From positions 1 to 64,000 of the forward strand of contig JAAVCL010000018.1 of the NCBI GenBank assembly GCA_014802335.1: 64,000 nucleotides of DNA. Direction: 5' to 3'. Positions 4,400 through 18,423 of this stretch are shown here, piece by piece. Each line of letters starts with the position of its first letter. Position 1 is the first letter of the stretch. The notes under the pieces are model-generated. The model saw nothing but the letters and a program-made list of their open reading frames with translations. It made no database searches and was not told where the DNA came from. The position numbers and the translations under genes are program-made. This DNA is from Bacteroides sp. (lineage in GTDB: Bacteria; Bacteroidota; Bacteroidia; Bacteroidales; Muribaculaceae).

Positions 4400-4456
4400 C
4401 GAGCTGTTGTGGATAAATTTGGCTGCTTGCAACCACATAAAAAAAATGCTAAAACT
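4400..4456 (+). promoter_or_regulatory. SAM-II riboswitch controlling metK
   Basis: The aptamer fits the SAM-II layout. P1 is TGTGG (4408-4412) with CCACA (4433-4437). The loop contains TTTGGC (4418-4423), which pairs perfectly as a pseudoknot with GCTAAA (4448-4453). The conserved TTGCA precedes the P1 3' arm, and ATGCTAAAA closes the motif. SAM binding is expected to lower expression of metK, the SAM synthetase about 300 nt downstream. Oddly for SAM-II, which usually hides a nearby ribosome site, the gene is far away and a terminator lies between. CGAGCTGTTGT (4400-4410) can pair with 4488-4498, and this competes with P1. Confidence 0.85.
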
Positions 4457-4462
4457 GCTCCA

Positions 4463-4753: not shown

Positions 4754-6103
4754 ATGGTAGAAAAAAACTACTTGTTCACATCCGAATCAGTATCGGAAGG
4801 ACATCCCGATAAAGTGGCCGACCAGATAAGCGATTGTCTGCTCGATGAGTTTATTGTTCGCGATCCCAAAAGCCGCGTGGCTATAGAAACACTTGTCACC
4901 ACGGGGCAAGTTGTGGTGGCCGGCGAGGTTTCTTCCGACGCCTACGTTGACGTTCCCACCGCCACGCGCGACCTTATCAACAAAATCGGCTATAACCGCG
5001 GTGCTTATCGATTTGACGGAGACTCCTGCGGAATTCTGACCGCTATCCACGAGCAGAGCCAGGATATAAGTCGCGGAGTTGACCGCAAGGATGAGACCGA
5101 CCGCACCGAAGAGGAATTGCAGGGGGCCGGCGACCAGGGCATGATGTTCGGATATGCCGTTAACGAAACCGAGGAATACATGCCTCTCACCGTTAGCCTC
5201 TCTCATCTTATATTGCGCGAACTCGCAGCCATCCGCCGCGAAGGCAAGGAAATGAGCTATTATCGCAAAGGCAAACTGGTAACCTATCTCCGCCCCGATG
5301 CGAAAAGCCAAGTTACAGTTGAATACGGGCCCGACCACCGCCCGGTGAAAATACACACCATCGTGGTTTCCACCCAGCATGATGACTTTATCCCGGCTCT
5401 CGACAACACCCTCGAAGCCCAGAATAAGGCCGACAAGGAGATGATTGAAGTTATTCGCCGAGATGTGGAGCAGGTGCTAATTCCACGCGTGCTCGCCAAA
5501 CTTCCCGAGGAAACACGCGCACTTTTCGGAAGCGATGTCAAACTGCTGGTTAATCCTACCGGAAAATTTGTAATCGGCGGTCCTCATGGCGACACCGGAC
5601 TCACCGGCCGCAAAATCATTGTCGACACCTACGGAGGTCGCGGAGCTCACGGAGGCGGGGCCTTCTCAGGCAAAGACCCGTCAAAGGTGGACCGCTCGGC
5701 TGCCTATGCCTGCCGGCACATTGCTAAAAATATGGTGGCCGCCGGGGTGGCCGATGAAATGCTTGTTCAGGTGGCTTACGCCATTGGAGAGCCTAACCCC
5801 GTGAGCATATTCGTCAATACTTACGGCACCGGAAAAACCGACAAGACCGACTCCGAAATCGCAGAAATCATCAGCGAAATGTTCGACATGCGTCCCCGCT
5901 CTATCGAGAAACGCCTCAAGCTTCGCGAACCGATCTATCTCGAAACGGCCGCCTACGGACACGTGGGCCGCAAACCGGAATGGGTGAAAAAGACATTCAC
6001 CGACCGCTACACTCACCAAACCATTGAACGCGAAGTGGAACTCTTCACCTGGGAAAAGCTCGACAAGACAGATGAAATCCGCCGTCGCTTCGGTCTCTCC
6101 TGA
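4754..6103 (+). CDS. metK: S-adenosylmethionine synthetase
   Basis: The 449-residue cytosolic enzyme makes S-adenosylmethionine from methionine and ATP. All three MAT domains are present: the N-terminal SEGHPDK with catalytic His17, the hexapeptide region GAGDQGMMFGYA, and the phosphate-binding stretch GGPHGDTGLTGRK followed by DTYGGRGAHGGGAFSGKD. At 449 residues it is longer than the roughly 385-residue E. coli form. The extra length includes the segment around residues 155-210, and the long form is usual in Bacteroidales. The ATG at 4754 directly precedes the conserved YLFTSESVSEGHPDK. It is a single-gene unit behind the SAM-II riboswitch, so product feedback is the expected control. A terminator at 6124 closes it. 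Confidence 0.98.
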   Translation: MVEKNYLFTSESVSEGHPDKVADQISDCLLDEFIVRDPKSRVAIETLVTTGQVVVAGEVSSDAYVDVPTATRDLINKIGYNRGAYRFDGDSCGILTAIHEQSQDISRGVDRKDETDRTEEELQGAGDQGMMFGYAVNETEEYMPLTVSLSHLILRELAAIRREGKEMSYYRKGKLVTYLRPDAKSQVTVEYGPDHRPVKIHTIVVSTQHDDFIPALDNTLEAQNKADKEMIEVIRRDVEQVLIPRVLAKLPEETRALFGSDVKLLVNPTGKFVIGGPHGDTGLTGRKIIVDTYGGRGAHGGGAFSGKDPSKVDRSAAYACRHIAKNMVAAGVADEMLVQVAYAIGEPNPVSIFVNTYGTGKTDKTDSEIAEIISEMFDMRPRSIEKRLKLREPIYLETAAYGHVGRKPEWVKKTFTDRYTHQTIEREVELFTWEKLDKTDEIRRRFGLS

Positions 6104-12384: not shown

Positions 12385-13506
12385 ATGAACACTCCAATCA
12401 GAGTTGGCATAAGCCAAGGCGATTATAACGGTGTCGGTCCTGAAGTTATAATGCGCTCGCTTGCCAACCCCTCAATATGCGAACTATTCACCCCCGTGGT
12501 ATTTGCCGACTGGCGCGTGATCGAACAGGCACGTCGCCCGGTGGAAGGGGAATTGCCCCCGGTTCAGCGAATCAACAACGCTGCCGAGGCGCATCCCGGA
12601 AAGATAAATGTTGTCGATCTGCATCTCAATAATTTTAATCTCACTCCCGGCGTGCCGACGCCGGAATCGGGTGCCGCCGCCGTGGCTGCCCTTGAAAAGG
12701 CCGTGGCTGCGCTCAAGTCCGGAAAAATCGACGTGCTGGTCACCGCCCCAATCTCAAAAGAGGCCGTGCAAAGCGAAATTTTCCATTTTGCCGGACACAC
12801 CGAATATCTTAATCACCACGCCGGTCAGGAATACAAGGCGCAGATGATTTTGCTCGACGACCATATCCGTGTGGCTCTTGTCACCACCCACCTCCCTCTG
12901 GCCCGAATCCCCGAGGCCATCACAATCCAGAGCATCACCGAGGCCGTTGCAAACTTCACACGCACACTGCGCGAAGACTTTGCCATTGAACGCCCCCGCA
13001 TCGCTGTCCTTTCCCTGAACCCGCATTGCGGCGACGGAGGCTTGCTCGGCGACGAAGAAATCCGCACAATCATTCCGGCCATAAAAGAGTGCATCTCCAA
13101 CGGGCTCCTTGCTTTCGGGCCATTTGCCGCCGACGGGTTCTTCGGCTCCGGGGCCTACCGCGACTTCGACGGTATCCTCGCCATGTATCATGACCAGGGT
13201 CTGGCCCCGTTCAAGGCGTTGGCCCGCGAACATGGCGTGAACTTCACAGCCGGGCTCCCCTTCGTGCGCACCAGCCCCGACCATGGCACCGCCTTCGACA
13301 TCGCCTGGACAGGAAAAGCAAACCCAACCTCCATGCGCGAAGCTATCTATAAGGCCATCGACATTTTCAAATGCCGTAAACGCTATGCCGAAGCCGCAGC
13401 CAACCCGCTTAAGATTCGCCCGCAGGCCCCGGCCCGCCCCGAACGCGAACGCAACATAAAATCGGTTAAACCCGAAGAAGCCGACACGGCCGAAAACGAG
13501 AATTAA
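12385..13506 (+). CDS. pdxA: 4-hydroxythreonine-4-phosphate dehydrogenase
   Basis: The 373-residue enzyme oxidises 4-phosphohydroxy-threonine for pyridoxal-phosphate synthesis. Family features are GDYNGVGPEV near the N-terminus, the metal and substrate His residues in FAGHTEYLNHH, LNPHCGDGG, the loop MYHDQGLAPFKAL, and RTSPDHGTAFDIAWTG near the end of the core. A Pro/Arg/Glu-rich tail of about 30 residues (RPQAPARPERERN ...) extends past the usual roughly 330-residue family length and is probably disordered. It sits 37 bp after rlmN and 21 bp before the nucleotidyltransferase gene. Its link to the lipid genes is probably only cotranscription. Confidence 0.95.
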   Translation: MNTPIRVGISQGDYNGVGPEVIMRSLANPSICELFTPVVFADWRVIEQARRPVEGELPPVQRINNAAEAHPGKINVVDLHLNNFNLTPGVPTPESGAAAVAALEKAVAALKSGKIDVLVTAPISKEAVQSEIFHFAGHTEYLNHHAGQEYKAQMILLDDHIRVALVTTHLPLARIPEAITIQSITEAVANFTRTLREDFAIERPRIAVLSLNPHCGDGGLLGDEEIRTIIPAIKECISNGLLAFGPFAADGFFGSGAYRDFDGILAMYHDQGLAPFKALAREHGVNFTAGLPFVRTSPDHGTAFDIAWTGKANPTSMREAIYKAIDIFKCRKRYAEAAANPLKIRPQAPARPERERNIKSVKPEEADTAENEN

Positions 13507-13527: not shown

Positions 13528-14256
13528 ATGAATTTCGGAATTATCGCTGCCGGTGAAGGCAGCCGACTCGTACAGGAGGGCGTGAGCCTCCCAAAGCCTC
13601 TCGTAAACATCGACGGCCGCCCCATGATCGGACGGCTCATTGAAATATTCATTTCATTGGGAGCCGAATGTATCTCAGTGATTGTCAACGAACAGATGAC
13701 CGAAGTGGCCGAATTCCTGCGTAAATATGAAATGCCTCCCGAATGTCGTCTGGAGCTCGTTGTCAAGTCCACACCTTCGTCGATGCACAGTTTCTATGAA
13801 CTGGGGCGCCTGCTGCGCGGCCGCGGACGATTCGTCCTTACAACCGTCGACACAATATTCCGCCGGGAAGATTTCGCCTCCTACGTAAAGGCCTTTACCG
13901 AGGCTCCCCACGGTGTCGAGGGCATGATGGCAGTCACGAGATTTATTGATGATGAAAAGCCGCTCTATGTCGAAACTGACGAGCAAATGGACATCACCGG
14001 TTTTCTCGACACCCCGGCCCCCGGCGTAAAATACATATCGGGAGGAATCTACGGGCTCGACTCGCGTGCAATCGACGTTCTTGACCGTTGTCTTGAAAAC
14101 GGAGTGTCGAGAATGAGGAATTTCCAACGCGCCCTTGTGGCCGACGGCCTTCACCTGAAAGCCTTCGATATGGGTAAAATAATCGACGTGGATCACGCGT
14201 CAGACATCCTCACCGCCGAAAAATTCATTTCATCGGGCGCACAAACAGAAAATTGA
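13528..14256 (+). CDS. NTP-transferase domain protein (sugar/polyol-phosphate nucleotidyltransferase)
   Basis: The 242-residue protein has the nucleotidyltransferase signature GxGxRL as AAGEGSRL (residues 7-14), followed by KPLVNIDGRPMIGRLIE, in which Lys23 should contact the phosphate. The mid-domain TTVDTIFRRED holds the expected metal-binding Asp. It should activate a phosphorylated sugar or polyol with CTP or another NTP. Given the inositol-phosphate synthase and CDP-alcohol transferase downstream, inositol phosphate is an attractive substrate, as in archaeal CTP:inositol-1-phosphate cytidylyltransferases; this is inference. It lies 21 bp after pdxA and 69 bp before the ATP-grasp gene. 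Confidence 0.8.
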   Translation: MNFGIIAAGEGSRLVQEGVSLPKPLVNIDGRPMIGRLIEIFISLGAECISVIVNEQMTEVAEFLRKYEMPPECRLELVVKSTPSSMHSFYELGRLLRGRGRFVLTTVDTIFRREDFASYVKAFTEAPHGVEGMMAVTRFIDDEKPLYVETDEQMDITGFLDTPAPGVKYISGGIYGLDSRAIDVLDRCLENGVSRMRNFQRALVADGLHLKAFDMGKIIDVDHASDILTAEKFISSGAQTEN

Positions 14257-14325
14257 ATCGAAAAAGTTTAAACGACTTCGAAAAGAAGATATAAACACTT
14301 CACTTTTCACAGCACACCAACAATA

Positions 14326-15195
14326 ATGGCAGATATAAAAATAGCGGGAGTGATGCGCGCAGGCGCATATTCACCCAATCACATAGGCAATGATGCCGCC
14401 ATATTTAATGCCGCCGCCGACCAACTCCGCAAACGGGGCTGCGAGGTGGTGGTATACAGCGAACAGCAATTCAACGACTCCGACATCCGCGAGGAGGTTA
14501 TACTCAACATGTGTCGCGAACAGGAATCGATCAGCAAACTCATCTCTCTTGAAGACCGCGGACGCCTTGTAATCAATTCGGGCCACGGCATCCAGAATTG
14601 CACCCGCGAACGCATGACCCGTATCCTCCTTGCCAACGGCATCCCCTATCCCGACAGCCTGATGGTCAACACCAACGAGGACGTGCGCGGCGCCCTTCGC
14701 GAAGCCGGATTCACCTCCTGCTGGATAAAACGCGGAGACTTCCACGCCATGCACAAAGAGGATGTGAGCTATTGCCGCCACATCGAGGAGGCCCAGGATG
14801 TGCTGCACGAATATTTCTACCGCGGCATCAAAAGGGCAGTCATCAATCGCCACCTTGTCGGCGACCTCGTGAAGTTCTACGGTGTCAGCGGCCAGCCCTT
14901 CTTCCACTGGTTCTACCCCTACGACGAAGGACACTCCAAATATGGTTATGAAGCCGTGAACGGCAAGTCGCAGGGCATTCCCTTCGATGCCGACGCGCTG
15001 CACGCCACCTGCCAGCGCGCCGCTGAAATCATGGATGTGCGCATATATGGCGGCGATTGCATCATCGCAGCCGACGGTTCTTTCCAAATCATAGACTTCA
15101 ACGATTGGCCCAGTTTCGCACCATGCCGCGCCGAAGGGAGCGTGGCCATCGCAAAATGCGTGCTGAAAGCTATCAGAGAATGGAAGAAAAATTAA
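14326..15195 (+). CDS. ATP-grasp family enzyme of unknown substrate
   Basis: The 289-residue protein has the C-terminal half of an ATP-grasp fold: VINRHLVGDLVKFYGV and IYGGDCIIAADGSFQIIDFNDWPSFAPCR. There the DxND cluster should bind Mg-ATP, and WPSF is typical of RimK/D-Ala ligase-like members. Lys in CWIKRGDFHAM may be the central ATP-contacting Lys. Such enzymes join a carboxylate to an amine or other nucleophile through an acyl-phosphate. No signal peptide is present. It is 6 bp upstream of the CDP-alcohol transferase, so cotranslation is likely. A role in modifying an inositol-lipid headgroup is conceivable, but nothing in the sequence names the substrate. Confidence 0.75.
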   Translation: MADIKIAGVMRAGAYSPNHIGNDAAIFNAAADQLRKRGCEVVVYSEQQFNDSDIREEVILNMCREQESISKLISLEDRGRLVINSGHGIQNCTRERMTRILLANGIPYPDSLMVNTNEDVRGALREAGFTSCWIKRGDFHAMHKEDVSYCRHIEEAQDVLHEYFYRGIKRAVINRHLVGDLVKFYGVSGQPFFHWFYPYDEGHSKYGYEAVNGKSQGIPFDADALHATCQRAAEIMDVRIYGGDCIIAADGSFQIIDFNDWPSFAPCRAEGSVAIAKCVLKAIREWKKN

Positions 15196-15201
15196 TCGGT
15201 T

Positions 15202-16134
15202 ATGAGTAATGAGACTAACAAGTCCGGTTTCCGCCAAGGATTCAAGGACTCACTGAAATCAATGGATACCGAGGAACACATCGACCTCTATTTCTACCGA
15301 CCCATAGGCTACGCCTGGGCCCTGCTGGCACGCAAACTCGGTGTCACACCCAACGCCATCACTATTGCCTCCATATTCCTCGGTGTCGGCGCCGGCGTCT
15401 GTTTCTATTTCAACAACATCTGGTGGAACCTCCTCGGAATGTTGCTCCTGATCTGGGCCGATTCGTTCGATAGCGCCGACGGCCAGCTGGCCCGGCTCAC
15501 AGGCCAGTACTCCCGCCTGGGACGTATTCTCGACGGACTGAGCGGCGACCTCTGGTTTGCAGCCATTTACGTAGCTATATGCCTGCGCGAGAATGTCACA
15601 AGCGAGTTCTTCAGCTCCCACCATTGGGTTATCTGGGTCATGGCTGTCGTTACAGGCCTTTGCCATGCCACCCAAGCCGCAATGGCCGACTATTACCGGC
15701 AGTTCCACCTCTTCTTCCTTAAAGGAAAACAGGGCAGCGAACTCGAAAATTCAAGCGACCTCCGCAAAAAATATGACTCGCTGAGCTGGAAACACAATTT
15801 CTTCCAGAAGTTCATTATGACCTTCTATCTCAACTACACCGTGGGCCAGGAAAGACGCACGCCCGCCATGCAGAACCTGCGCCGCCGACTCCGCGAAAAA
15901 TATCACGGTGAAATCCCGCAGGAGGTGCGCGATCGGTTCCGCGCTCTCAGCCTCCCGCTGATGAAATATACCAACATCCTATCGTTCAATGTCAGAACTA
16001 TAGCCCTCTTCACCGCTATCCTGATTTTCAGAATGCCCTGGCTATACTTCGCATTTGAACTTACGGTGCTTAATTTCATTCTTATATATATGGTGGTGCG
16101 TCACGAACGCATTTGCAAAAACTTTAAAATCTGA
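15202..16134 (+). CDS. CDP-alcohol phosphatidyltransferase, probable inositol-phospholipid synthase
   Basis: The 310-residue membrane protein carries the CDP-OH transferase motif: Asp90, Asp93-Gly94, Ala97-Arg98, Gly107, Asp111 and Asp116 (from DSADGQLAR to RILDGLSGD). The last Asp is one position later than the usual D(x)3D. About six hydrophobic segments surround it. It should exchange CMP of CDP-diacylglycerol for a polar alcohol or alcohol phosphate. The position between a nucleotidyltransferase and a HAD phosphatase, with inositol-3-phosphate synthase next, points to phosphatidylinositol-phosphate synthase. Its stop is 1 bp before the ATG of the phosphatase. A phosphatidylglycerophosphate-type activity remains possible. 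Confidence 0.85.
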   Translation: MSNETNKSGFRQGFKDSLKSMDTEEHIDLYFYRPIGYAWALLARKLGVTPNAITIASIFLGVGAGVCFYFNNIWWNLLGMLLLIWADSFDSADGQLARLTGQYSRLGRILDGLSGDLWFAAIYVAICLRENVTSEFFSSHHWVIWVMAVVTGLCHATQAAMADYYRQFHLFFLKGKQGSELENSSDLRKKYDSLSWKHNFFQKFIMTFYLNYTVGQERRTPAMQNLRRRLREKYHGEIPQEVRDRFRALSLPLMKYTNILSFNVRTIALFTAILIFRMPWLYFAFELTVLNFILIYMVVRHERICKNFKI

Positions 16135-16135
16135 T

Positions 16136-16861
16136 ATGAACATAGACATTTCAAAAATCAAAGGAATCATCTTCGACTACGGAGGCACACTCGACACCGG
16201 CGGTGACCACTGGAGCGAAGTAATATGGGAAGCTTGGCAGAACGCCGGCATCGCCGCCGACAAACCCCACTTCCGCGAAGCCTACGTGTTTGCCGAACGC
16301 GAACTCGCACGCGAACGCCACATTCTGCCACAACATGATTTTCACGACATGCTCCTCATAAAGATGAAAATCGAATTGCAATGGCTCTCTTCGCAAGGCC
16401 TGCTCCCACCCGAAGATATTGAACCCAAAAGCCAACAGGCTGCAAAATACTGCTATGAGGCAGCCCGCAAAAACGTTGAGGCAGCCCAACCGGTGCTGGC
16501 CGCCCTTGCCGCTAAATATCCCCTCGTGCTCGTTTCCAATTTTTACGGAAACATCGAAACCGTGCTCACCGACTTCGGCGTGCGCAAATATTTCAAAGAC
16601 ATCATCGAATCGGCCGTGATCGGAGTCCGCAAACCCGATCCCGAAATCTTCCGCCACGGTGTCAAAGCCCTTGGTCTCAAGCCGGAAGAAACTCTCGTTA
16701 TCGGCGACTCATATAAGAAAGACATCGTGCCCGCAGAATCAATCGGCTGCCAGGTGCTTTGGCTCAAAGGCAAAGGCTGGACGCCCGAAGAAGATGCTCA
16801 GCTTCATCCCAACATTATCAGCAGTCTCGACCGGGCGCTCACCCTTGTTGAAGGTGAATAA
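16136..16861 (+). CDS. HAD-like phosphatase of the inositol-lipid cluster
   Basis: The 241-residue protein has a HAD core: motif I FDYGGTLD (nucleophile Asp14), motif II LVLVSNFYG (Ser), motif III Lys in GVRKPDPEIF and motif IV VIGDSYKKDIVPAE. Position +2 of motif I is Gly16 instead of the usual acid/base Asp, as in the FDxGG HAD subgroup, so activity may be weak or specialised. A cap domain lies between motifs I and II. The ATG at 16136, 1 bp after the previous stop, is preferred over an overlapping longer reading from 16055. Removing the phosphate from phosphatidylinositol phosphate is the expected step at this place in the pathway; this is inferred from context. Confidence 0.82.
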   Translation: MNIDISKIKGIIFDYGGTLDTGGDHWSEVIWEAWQNAGIAADKPHFREAYVFAERELARERHILPQHDFHDMLLIKMKIELQWLSSQGLLPPEDIEPKSQQAAKYCYEAARKNVEAAQPVLAALAAKYPLVLVSNFYGNIETVLTDFGVRKYFKDIIESAVIGVRKPDPEIFRHGVKALGLKPEETLVIGDSYKKDIVPAESIGCQVLWLKGKGWTPEEDAQLHPNIISSLDRALTLVEGE

Positions 16862-16898
16862 AGCCCCGATAGCCTGATTTACATTTATTAACATTTAC

Positions 16899-16949
16899 AG
16901 GGTTTTGCTATATATTTATTAATATTTATATAGTAAAACCCTATTTTTT
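16899..16949 (+). terminator. Strong terminator between the HAD gene and the inositol-phosphate synthase gene
   Basis: Arms 16899-16914 and 16927-16942 (AGGGTTTT... and ...AAAACCCT) pair at 15 of 16 positions and are followed by ATTTTTT. It ends the rlmN-to-HAD operon, so the next gene needs its own promoter. Confidence 0.85.
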
Positions 16950-16992
16950 AACACAATTTAAGAAATAGAATAATAAATTTTTCTGAAATTAC

Positions 16993-17023
16993 TTTGATAA
17001 ATGCAAAATAGGATATAATTTTA
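16993..17023 (+). promoter_or_regulatory. Candidate promoter of the inositol-3-phosphate synthase gene
   Basis: TTTG at 16993-16996 is followed after 19 bp by TAATTTTA (17016-17023), which departs from TAnnTTTG only at the last base. The predicted leader is about 68 nt. Confidence 0.55.
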
Positions 17024-17094
17024 CAACGTGTATTCCCGTGACTGAACGTTCACGGCTCAAAAAAAACGAATAAAAAAACAACTTTAATAACGAT

Positions 17095-18423
17095 ATGTCA
17101 ACAGCAAAAGCAGAAGCACCTAAAGGAAAACTTGGTGTACTTGTGGTAGGTCTCGGGGCCGTTTCGTCCACATTCATGACCGGAGTCCTAATGGCTCGCA
17201 AAGGCCTTGCCAAGCCCGTGGGTTCAATGACTCAATATGATAAAATCCGCGTTGGCCGCGGCGAAAACAAGAAATATCTTCATTACAAAGACATCGTTCC
17301 CCTCGCAGAACTCGACGACATCGTGTTCGGCGCATGGGACGTTTACCCGGCAAATGCTTACGAATCTGCCATCAACTGCGAGGTTCTGAAGGAAAAAGAC
17401 ATCAATCCCGTAAAAGAGGAACTTGAGGCCATCAAGCCCATGAAAGCCGCTTTCGACAAGAACTATGCCAAGCGTCTTGACGGTGACAACGTAAAGGACG
17501 TGAAAGACCGTTGGGACATGGTGGAACAACTCCGCGAAGACATCCGCAACTTCAAGAAAGAAACCGGAGTTGAGCGTGTTGTTGTGCTTTGGGCCGCTTC
17601 AACCGAAGTTTACGTTCCCGTTAATGAAAAGATCCACGGCTCGATCGAAGCTCTTGAAGCTGCAATGAAGGCCGACGACAAAGAACACATCGCCCCCTCG
17701 ATGTGCTATGCTTACGCTGCTCTCAGCGAAGGCGCTCCTTTCATCATGGGTGCTCCCAACACCACTGTTGATATTCCCGCCATGTGGGAACTTGCTGAAA
17801 AAACAGGCATGCCTATCGCCGGAAAAGACTTCAAGACCGGCCAGACCCTCGTTAAGTCAGGCTTCGCTCCTATCATCGGCACCCGCTGCCTCGGCCTCAA
17901 CGGCTGGTTCTCAACCAACATTCTCGGCAACCGCGACGGTCTCGTGCTCGACGAGCCTGCAAACTTCCGCACAAAAGAAGTTTCAAAACTCTCCACTCTC
18001 GAAAGCATCCTCGTGCCCGAAGACCAACCCGATCTTTACGGCCACGGCAACGACGAAGACACCCAGTACTATCACAAAGTGCGCATCAACTATTATCCCC
18101 CGCGCAACGACAACAAAGAAGGCTGGGACAACATCGACATCTTCGGCTGGATGGGCTATCCAATGCAGATAAAGATCAACTTCCTCTGCCGCGACTCTAT
18201 CCTTGCCGCTCCTCTTTGCCTTGACCTCGTGCTCCTCAGCGACCTCGCCATGCGCGCAGGCAAAAGCGGCACTCAACGCTTCCTCAGCTTCTTCCTCAAG
18301 AGCCCGATGCACGATTACACTCAGGGCGAAGTGCCTGTGAACCACCTCTTCCAGCAGTACACAATGCTCAAAAACGCTATCCGCGAAATGGGTGGTTACG
18401 AAGCCGACGAAGAAATCGATTAA
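17095..18423 (+). CDS. myo-inositol-3-phosphate synthase (inositol-1-phosphate synthase)
   Basis: The 442-residue enzyme converts glucose-6-phosphate to inositol-3-phosphate with NAD. The N-terminal Rossmann motif VLVVGLGAVSSTFMTGV, the MIPS segments VVLWAASTEV and NTTVDIPAMWELAEKTG, and the catalytic stretch KDFKTGQTLVKSGFAPIIGTR with the essential Lys residues are all present. The catalytic domain continues through GLNGWFSTNILGNRDG and KSGTQRFLSFFLKSP. It lies on the same strand as the CDP-alcohol transferase and phosphatase, behind a terminator and a separate candidate promoter. It supplies the headgroup for the lipid pathway. Symbols used elsewhere are ino1 or mips; none is assigned here. 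Confidence 0.95.
   Translation: MSTAKAEAPKGKLGVLVVGLGAVSSTFMTGVLMARKGLAKPVGSMTQYDKIRVGRGENKKYLHYKDIVPLAELDDIVFGAWDVYPANAYESAINCEVLKEKDINPVKEELEAIKPMKAAFDKNYAKRLDGDNVKDVKDRWDMVEQLREDIRNFKKETGVERVVVLWAASTEVYVPVNEKIHGSIEALEAAMKADDKEHIAPSMCYAYAALSEGAPFIMGAPNTTVDIPAMWELAEKTGMPIAGKDFKTGQTLVKSGFAPIIGTRCLGLNGWFSTNILGNRDGLVLDEPANFRTKEVSKLSTLESILVPEDQPDLYGHGNDEDTQYYHKVRINYYPPRNDNKEGWDNIDIFGWMGYPMQIKINFLCRDSILAAPLCLDLVLLSDLAMRAGKSGTQRFLSFFLKSPMHDYTQGEVPVNHLFQQYTMLKNAIREMGGYEADEEID

Follow-up and report, generated by a model that had tools for sequence, protein, structure and literature searches.

The locus that we describe here raises a simple question: what is made by a row of genes in which a nucleotidyltransferase (NTP transferase), an ATP-grasp enzyme, a CDP-alcohol phosphatidyltransferase, a HAD hydrolase and myo-inositol-3-phosphate synthase (MIPS) follow one another, and what does the ATP-grasp enzyme contribute to it? 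The row lies in the window, by which we mean the whole stretch of 64,000 nucleotides that was analysed. The window is part of a contig (C18) of a Muribaculaceae assembly of 2.1 Mb that is 84% complete (genome label G000), and among the best 80 of at least 533 relatives, the closest named ones are Muribaculaceae, including 'Candidatus Amulumruptor'. The first-pass annotation had reported five tightly spaced genes on one strand and had read them as an inositol lipid locus. All five open reading frames are confirmed (Table 1), and their family matches agree with that description. The tight spacing holds as far as the HAD gene (gaps of 69, 6 and 1 bp), but MIPS follows only after 233 bp. On the plus strand, the order is pdxA, NTP transferase, ATP-grasp, CDP-alcohol transferase, HAD hydrolase and MIPS, with pdxA ending 21 bp upstream of the NTP transferase. 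Because the cluster order is found again in many families of the order Bacteroidales, the gene set is far beyond chance. We consider it probable that the locus makes an inositol lipid; we propose, more tentatively, a Kennedy-type route of kinase, cytidylyltransferase, transferase and phosphatase to inositol phospholipids, with inositol (dihydro)ceramide as the likeliest product.

The ATP-grasp gene within a known cluster

Heaver et al. (2022; PMC9246714) describe, for B. vulgatus and Prevotella, an alternative inositol lipid cluster in which an NTP transferase, a CDP-alcohol transferase and a HAD enzyme stand beside MIPS. They report this route to be commoner in Prevotella; its CDP-inositol intermediate is proposed by the authors and declared unconfirmed, and PI-dihydroceramide (phosphatidylinositol dihydroceramide, PI-DHC) was detected in B. 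vulgatus and P. veroralis, both of which lack the B. thetaiotaomicron genes (PMC9246714). The window locus holds the first three of these genes together, with MIPS in their direct vicinity, and is, by gene content, this alternative cluster, a known kind whose function is putative. The likeness extends to fusions of the CDP-alcohol transferase with the HAD enzyme, which occur in P. veroralis there and at L087 and L122 here (L, G and f numbers are our labels for loci, genomes and families), and to the lack of any PIPS, PIPPh or PI-DHC synthase of the B. thetaiotaomicron type at the locus. The difference is the ATP-grasp gene: the main text of PMC9246714 has no instance of the term 'ATP-grasp', and its place as a core part of the cluster is apparently new here. 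Gaps between the locus tags given there (BVU_RS13095, BVU_RS13105 and BVU_RS13115) may hold an ATP-grasp gene and the LPG_synthase_TM gene.

The B. thetaiotaomicron cluster BT_1522-1526 also ends in an inositol lipid, but MIPS is the only gene that it has in common with the window locus, which lacks a PIPS-type transferase, a PgpA-type phosphatase, GtrA and a PAP2-type PI-DHC synthase and whose expected donor would be CDP-inositol rather than CDP-diacylglycerol. The window transferase was rejected as a PIP synthase because it reaches 22.9 bits on PIPSynBT1523 (the model for BT_1523; cut-off 350), the PIPS search being confined to the locus. The PI-DHC synthase model NF052609 (BT_1522) has no match in G000 at its 84% completeness. 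The first-pass reading as an inositol lipid locus is partly supported, by the gene set of the alternative cluster and not by that of B. thetaiotaomicron, and the comparison of gene order that it had called for points to the B. vulgatus/Prevotella type and away from BT_1522-1526.

The ATP-grasp gene is present in 112 of 119 Muribaculaceae genomes and in 31 of 247 genomes of the order. Thirty of these 31 also carry the cluster-type CDP-alcohol transferase and 29 carry MIPS (Fisher tests on co-distribution ignore phylogeny throughout). The transferase is matched at E 1e-15 in 35 order genomes, and the five with a match and no ATP-grasp gene (G130, G156, G222, G238, G258) match more weakly or in part, probably through paralogues. 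Across 27 outgroup loci, two of which (L176, L200) end at contig edges, the ATP-grasp gene stands with the CDP-alcohol transferase in all 27; the NTP transferase and the HAD gene accompany it in 26 each, and MIPS does so in 22, once from the other strand. Profile searches further revealed an ATP-grasp domain fused behind the NTP transferase at L187, L191 and L192, and NTP transferase, ATP-grasp and CDP-alcohol transferase as a single protein of 820 residues at L190, where Pfam supports the NTP transferase and CDP-alcohol transferase parts. Together with the transferase-HAD fusions, these proteins are compatible with a sequence of kinase, cytidylyltransferase, transferase and phosphatase, although they are no proof of it. 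Wide presence, co-occurrence with the CDP-alcohol transferase, shared loci and fusions suggest that the ATP-grasp enzyme belongs to the core of the cluster. Two further candidates for a transferase-HAD fusion were rejected: the long frame at L184 only overlaps the CDP-alcohol transferase in another frame, and that at L182 (3912-5630) joins an LPG_synthase_TM-like flippase domain to the HAD phosphatase, hinting that the phosphatase may work near lipid export.

In a tree of 85 ATP-grasp rows, from which fused proteins and the window's own sequence are excluded and in which bootstrap support is unsettled (36 inner branches open), the outgroup rows all come with the alternative cluster, and operons that merge the two kinds of cluster recur. 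Rows accompanied only by B. thetaiotaomicron-type genes or only by pdxA are nested inside the family, so the loss of neighbours looks secondary.

The two gene sets partition the inositol makers of the order: all 38 MIPS-positive genomes have either the ATP-grasp gene (29) or, failing that, PI-DHC synthase (NF052609, E <1e-50; 9 of 9). Within the Muribaculaceae, classed by best E per genome with a limit of 1e-40 for the cluster-type CDP-alcohol transferase, 73 genomes have only the alternative transferase, 23 have it together with PI-DHC synthase, 13 have only PI-DHC synthase and 10 have neither; MIPS is found in 68/73, 23/23, 13/13 and 0/10 of these groups, respectively. With the alternative transferase in 96 of 119 genomes, the alternative route is, judged by gene content, the main one in this family. 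The two types also mix: 14 of the 85 rows in the tree have genes of both kinds close to ATP-grasp and on one strand. At L074, L201 and L202, for example, a PgpA-type phosphatase, GtrA, PIPS and PI-DHC synthase lie between the ATP-grasp and CDP-alcohol transferase genes, with an acyltransferase in addition at L074 (genes named by Pfam and NCBIfam at L074 and by BLAST at L201 and L202). Such a merged order is not what simple redundancy would predict.

A link to sphingolipids is seen in the distribution of serine palmitoyltransferase, taken as a match to NF047600 at E 1e-130 or better. Among order genomes, 27 of the 31 with the ATP-grasp gene have it, against 54 of the 216 without; in the family it is found in 111 of 119 genomes, including 91 of 91 high-quality ones. 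In G000 itself it was not found, the nearest proteins being glycine C-acetyltransferase and a BioF-like enzyme, and the incomplete assembly is probably the reason. A cluster at L213 (3969-16045) begins with serine palmitoyltransferase, two GNAT proteins and a HisC/CobD-like enzyme dependent on pyridoxal phosphate (PLP), continues with a CDP-alcohol transferase of a second type, whose fourth aspartate is canonical, with its own NTP transferase and a LysE-type protein, and runs into an inositol module of NTP transferase, TetR, ATP-grasp, CDP-alcohol transferase, LPG_synthase_TM, HAD and MIPS. The part headed by serine palmitoyltransferase, which is also seen at L188, L194 and L195, is possibly a module for Kennedy-type synthesis of ceramide phosphoethanolamine or a similar lipid.

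Sequence and fold of the enzymes

The AlphaFold2 model of the ATP-grasp protein (predicted local distance difference test score, pLDDT, 92.3) has the ATP-grasp fold, which is also that of ITPK kinases. The fold search does not tell kinase from ligase, because it ends in a tie between many ATP-grasp enzymes, all of which share this fold; RimK, LysX and Ddl are nearest. By profile, the best match is ITPK (1z2n, E 2e-6; human ITPK1, 2e-3), with the ligases PsnB (1e-5) and ArgX (4e-5) close by. The metal motif of the window protein, IDFNDWPS, is of the form D-x-N. Of the 171 homologues that could be read, 160 share this form and 11 deviate, so that D-x-N is not universal; none has E-x-N. ITPK carries D-x-N, whereas PsnB, ArgX and all five E. 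coli ligase domains checked (RimK, DdlB, GshB and both CarB domains) carry E-x-N, a divider between kinases and ligases for which the controls are few. Pfam has no family for the window protein and gave nothing convincing for 60 homologues; a match to Gamma_PGA_hydro in 14 of the 60 (best E 0.004) is weak and was taken as chance. The ITPK domain PF05770 was matched by one of the 60 (E 0.064) and not by the window protein, and similarity to the ITPK kinases of eukaryotes and Lokiarchaeota is marginal. Because PF05770 does not match, we do not file the enzyme as an ITPK; that it works like one is a hypothesis. Ins3P (myo-inositol 3-phosphate) is a substrate of ITPK1 and inositol is not, according to a review (PMC8024741). 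We tentatively regard the ATP-grasp enzyme as a putative ITPK-like kinase of inositol or of an inositol phosphate. A locus with two diverged copies was also observed (L031, in G061): they lie about 3.6 kb apart, one in a cluster of NTP transferase, CDP-alcohol transferase and HAD, and the other beside pdxA on the other strand, with Asn in place of the metal-motif Asp.

The NTP transferase has R13, K23 and D108 (own translation), which match the spacing of the residues R16, K26 and D112 reported for T. maritima IMPCT (PMC12275187). It also has a weak NCBIfam match to IPCT-DIPPS (E 4e-10, far under the cut-off), and we propose that it is a CTP:inositol-phosphate cytidylyltransferase. The model of the CDP-alcohol transferase (pLDDT 93.6) is closest in fold to enzymes with soluble CDP-alcohol donors. 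Its motif, DSADGQLAR-x8-GRILDGLSGD, contains the Class I pattern D1xxD2G1xxAR...G2xxxD3 as D90xxD93G94xxAR98-x8-G107xxxD111, invariant in 33 of 33 alignment rows, and has Gly at the canonical position of D4, the catalytic base. The replacement is found in 159 of 162 sequences labelled as CDP-alcohol transferases that have the motif (one further sequence lacks it), and the three with Asp are paralogues of 26-32% identity; the PIPS control has Asp in 22 of 22. The residue after the D4 position in the 159 Gly sequences is Asp in 148, Asn in 7 and Glu in 4. A cluster-related transferase at L196 (6269-7201), from a genome without an ATP-grasp match (G052), has Gly there too. We propose that the enzyme transfers a headgroup from CDP-inositol(-phosphate) to dihydroceramide or diacylglycerol. 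The HAD phosphatase is proposed to remove a ring (3-)phosphate. Its motif I reads D-Y/F-G-G-T in 128 of 135 sequences (window and relatives), six being without a match, among them the L190 fusion, which has no HAD; the canonical motif is DxDx(T/V), and its second aspartate is Gly in these proteins.

A possible route and its competitors

Sequence shows which families are present, how their genes are grouped and co-distributed and where they are fused, whereas every substrate and the order of the steps are what we infer. MIPS would convert glucose-6-phosphate to Ins3P, which the ATP-grasp enzyme would phosphorylate, most simply at O1, to inositol 1,3-bisphosphate, Ins(1,3)P2. The NTP transferase would then turn the 1-phosphate into a CDP-inositol, the membrane-bound CDP-alcohol transferase would place phosphoinositol on dihydroceramide (or diacylglycerol), and the HAD enzyme would take off the remaining 3-phosphate. 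In a variant, the HAD enzyme would strip the 3-phosphate first and the ATP-grasp enzyme would rephosphorylate free inositol at O1. Either way, the kinase step would yield the usual 1-linked phosphoinositol, whereas direct cytidylylation of Ins3P would lead to a 3-linked, enantiomeric headgroup. It is doubtful whether Ins(1,3)P2 is in fact an intermediate, and we are equally hesitant about the fullest form of the proposal, in which the kinase makes an obligate inositol bisphosphate for sphingolipids in a full Kennedy pathway and the transferase works without the catalytic aspartate. A bacterial cytidylyltransferase that makes the CDP-donor for a ceramide headgroup is found in the CpgD pathway to ceramide diphosphoglycerate in Caulobacter, where the headgroup is phosphoglycerate (PMC12275187) and ceramide is the substrate of the kinase, CpgB, whose domain is of the DAG-kinase (diacylglycerol kinase) type (PMC10331486). 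By that analogy the ATP-grasp enzyme could be a ceramide kinase, a role that we rejected because CpgB is a DAG-kinase-type protein.

Several observations weigh against the kinase route. All 13 family genomes with PI-DHC synthase and no alternative transferase have kept the ATP-grasp gene; G058, G077 and G093 have it beside pdxA with neither MIPS nor either type of transferase, and hence as an ATP-grasp/pdxA pair without either inositol lipid pathway (L197, L044 and L082), G049 being a fourth such genome in which the contig ends inside the cluster. Two order genomes (G299 and G327) have ATP-grasp and no MIPS, four ATP-grasp genomes have no serine palmitoyltransferase (G000, G129, G327 and G239, the last 97% complete), and 11 homologues out of the 171, all of them from Muribaculaceae, deviate in the metal motif. 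For the 13 genomes and those with the pdxA pair, the tree suggests a secondary loss of the partners, yet the enzyme must then be useful there without them.

The published scheme dispenses with a kinase: the NTP transferase would make CDP-inositol from Ins3P, the CDP-alcohol transferase would make PI-diacylglycerol, and the HAD enzyme would act like AUR1 to give PI-dihydroceramide, the ATP-grasp enzyme being a passenger or accessory. It has been set out in print, with mention of CDP-inositol in hyperthermophiles (PMC9246714). The persistence of ATP-grasp without the rest in some Muribaculaceae and the altered metal motifs would suit it. It leaves the ATP-grasp enzyme no role despite the fusions to the NTP transferase and CDP-alcohol transferase and the co-distribution in 30 of 31 genomes, and it predicts a 3-linked headgroup. 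Cytidylylation of the MIPS product has a precedent in archaeal IPCT. HAD enzymes are soluble phosphatases and AUR1 belongs to a PAP2-type membrane family, and we judge this scheme improbable. A carboxylate ligase, with the ATP-grasp enzyme adding an amino acid or similar group to the inositol headgroup or to another product to give a decorated lipid, also seems rather unlikely to us. The nearest folds, the rimK_fam match at E 5e-8 and the frequent neighbour pdxA speak for a ligase; the absence of E-x-N from all 171 homologues in the face of 160 with D-x-N, a score of 32.6 bits on rimK_fam against the curated cut-off of 143.4, and the lack of a carboxylate in the pathway speak against it, and the results on distribution and the discussion in PMC9246714 mention no decorated headgroup.

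Another explanation accepts the lipid and questions its identity: the cluster would make a second inositol lipid, with another acceptor or headgroup, and would not substitute for the Bacteroides pathway. The transferase of this cluster occurs together with PI-DHC synthase in 23 of 119 family genomes, the two sets lie near each other on one strand in the 14 tree rows mentioned above (e.g., L074, L201), and ATP-grasp occurs with PI-DHC synthase in three genomes outside the family (G185, G289, G327); sets that are kept together are hard to call redundant. As substitutes would, however, the two sets alternate within each of f20, f59 and f105, where one sampled member carries the first and another the second, and all nine order MIPS genomes without ATP-grasp have PI-DHC synthase; we hold a second lipid to be unlikely. 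A soluble compound like di-myo-inositol-phosphate, made by IPCT, DIPPS and a phosphatase as in hyperthermophiles, is by contrast highly improbable. MIPS, IPCT, DIPPS and a phosphatase would form a complete pathway set, and the L190 triple fusion recalls IPCT-DIPPS. IPCT-DIPPS and AF2299 of Archaeoglobus are the closest folds to the window transferase, use a soluble CDP-alcohol donor and have a cytidylyltransferase-like domain fused (PMC4634129). Their product is soluble, whereas species with only the alternative cluster make PI-DHC (PMC9246714) and the cluster is associated with serine palmitoyltransferase. D4 is present in the AF2299 alignment, and the IPCT-DIPPS model NF041135 (cut-off 580) gives 39.2 bits for the NTP transferase and 21.4 for the CDP-alcohol transferase. 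The hosts are gut organisms and not hyperthermophiles, and to our knowledge no ATP-grasp enzyme belongs to the archaeal system. None of the papers found in the openly licensed literature reports an assay of an enzyme of the alternative route. Among these explanations, we favour the kinase route, at the tentative strength given above.

Gene layout, transcription signals and implications

Table 1. Genes and a possible terminator at the proposed inositol lipid locus of the window.
Feature	Position	Strand	Match or remark
pdxA (4-hydroxythreonine-4-phosphate dehydrogenase)	12385..13506	+	TIGR00557, 363.8 bits (cut-off 290)
NTP transferase	13528..14256	+	PF00483 (E 1e-10) / PF12804
ATP-grasp enzyme	14326..15195	+	NCBIfam rimK_fam, E 5e-8, far under model cut-off
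CDP-alcohol phosphatidyltransferase	15202..16134	+	PF01066, 3e-13
HAD hydrolase	16136..16861	+	PF00702, 2e-20; TIGR02253/TIGR02252 under cut-off
MIPS (myo-inositol-3-phosphate synthase)	17095..18423	+	PF07994, E 1e-102; 7nwr, E 2.2e-179
A+T-rich hairpin, then ATTTTTT; possible terminator	16900..16949	+	between HAD and MIPS

The HAD start at ATG 16136 is our choice; the longest frame begins at TTG 16055. In the gap that follows this gene, the first-pass annotation had seen a terminator and a separate promoter for MIPS. A terminator is plausible: the A+T-rich hairpin at 16900-16942 has 15 pairs and is followed by ATTTTTT, and the folding energy of 16862-17000 is -25.3 kcal/mol against -13.3 +/- 2.7 for shuffled sequences, none of 200 shuffles being as low. 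The consensus terminator scan, whose loop limit is 8, did not return this hairpin. The evidence for a promoter is weak: it consists of one 10/12 sigma-70-like match, at 16888-16916, made with a model that is not tuned to Bacteroidota, and promoter and terminator scans overall gave 8 sigma-70-like matches in the region against 4.8 expected and 13 terminator matches against 8.5. Among pairs on one strand and within 1.5 kb, HAD and MIPS are 180-780 bp apart in the 26 from the family, but 50 bp or less in 9 of 19 from the outgroup, so separate control of MIPS would be a family trait at most.

Upstream, pdxA precedes the cluster in many family loci and in 10 of 27 outgroup loci. It was rejected as a pathway member, being absent from the other 17 outgroup loci and single in 115 of 119 family genomes (present in 117), and is probably a housekeeping gene of PLP synthesis. 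An Rfam scan of the window returned only tRNA and SAM-II matches, among them the SAM-II riboswitch RF01726 at 4403-4462, about 290 bp upstream of an open reading frame (4754-6103) that we take to encode S-adenosylmethionine synthetase.

In B. thetaiotaomicron, the loss of inositol lipids is reported to change capsule expression, resistance to antimicrobial peptides and fitness in mice (PMC9246714). The occurrence of both gene sets in one operon in relatives of the window genome questions the view of them as simple alternatives. Once the ATP-grasp enzyme, hitherto overlooked, is counted as core and the steps are ordered from kinase to phosphatase, the route would be testable with four purified proteins, and it raises the chemical question of whether the phosphoinositol is 1-linked or 3-linked. 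If the kinase reading is true, ITPK-like chemistry, which has been described in eukaryotes and Lokiarchaeota, would also operate in abundant gut bacteria and would link bacterial lipid synthesis with the inositol-phosphate kinases of eukaryotes.

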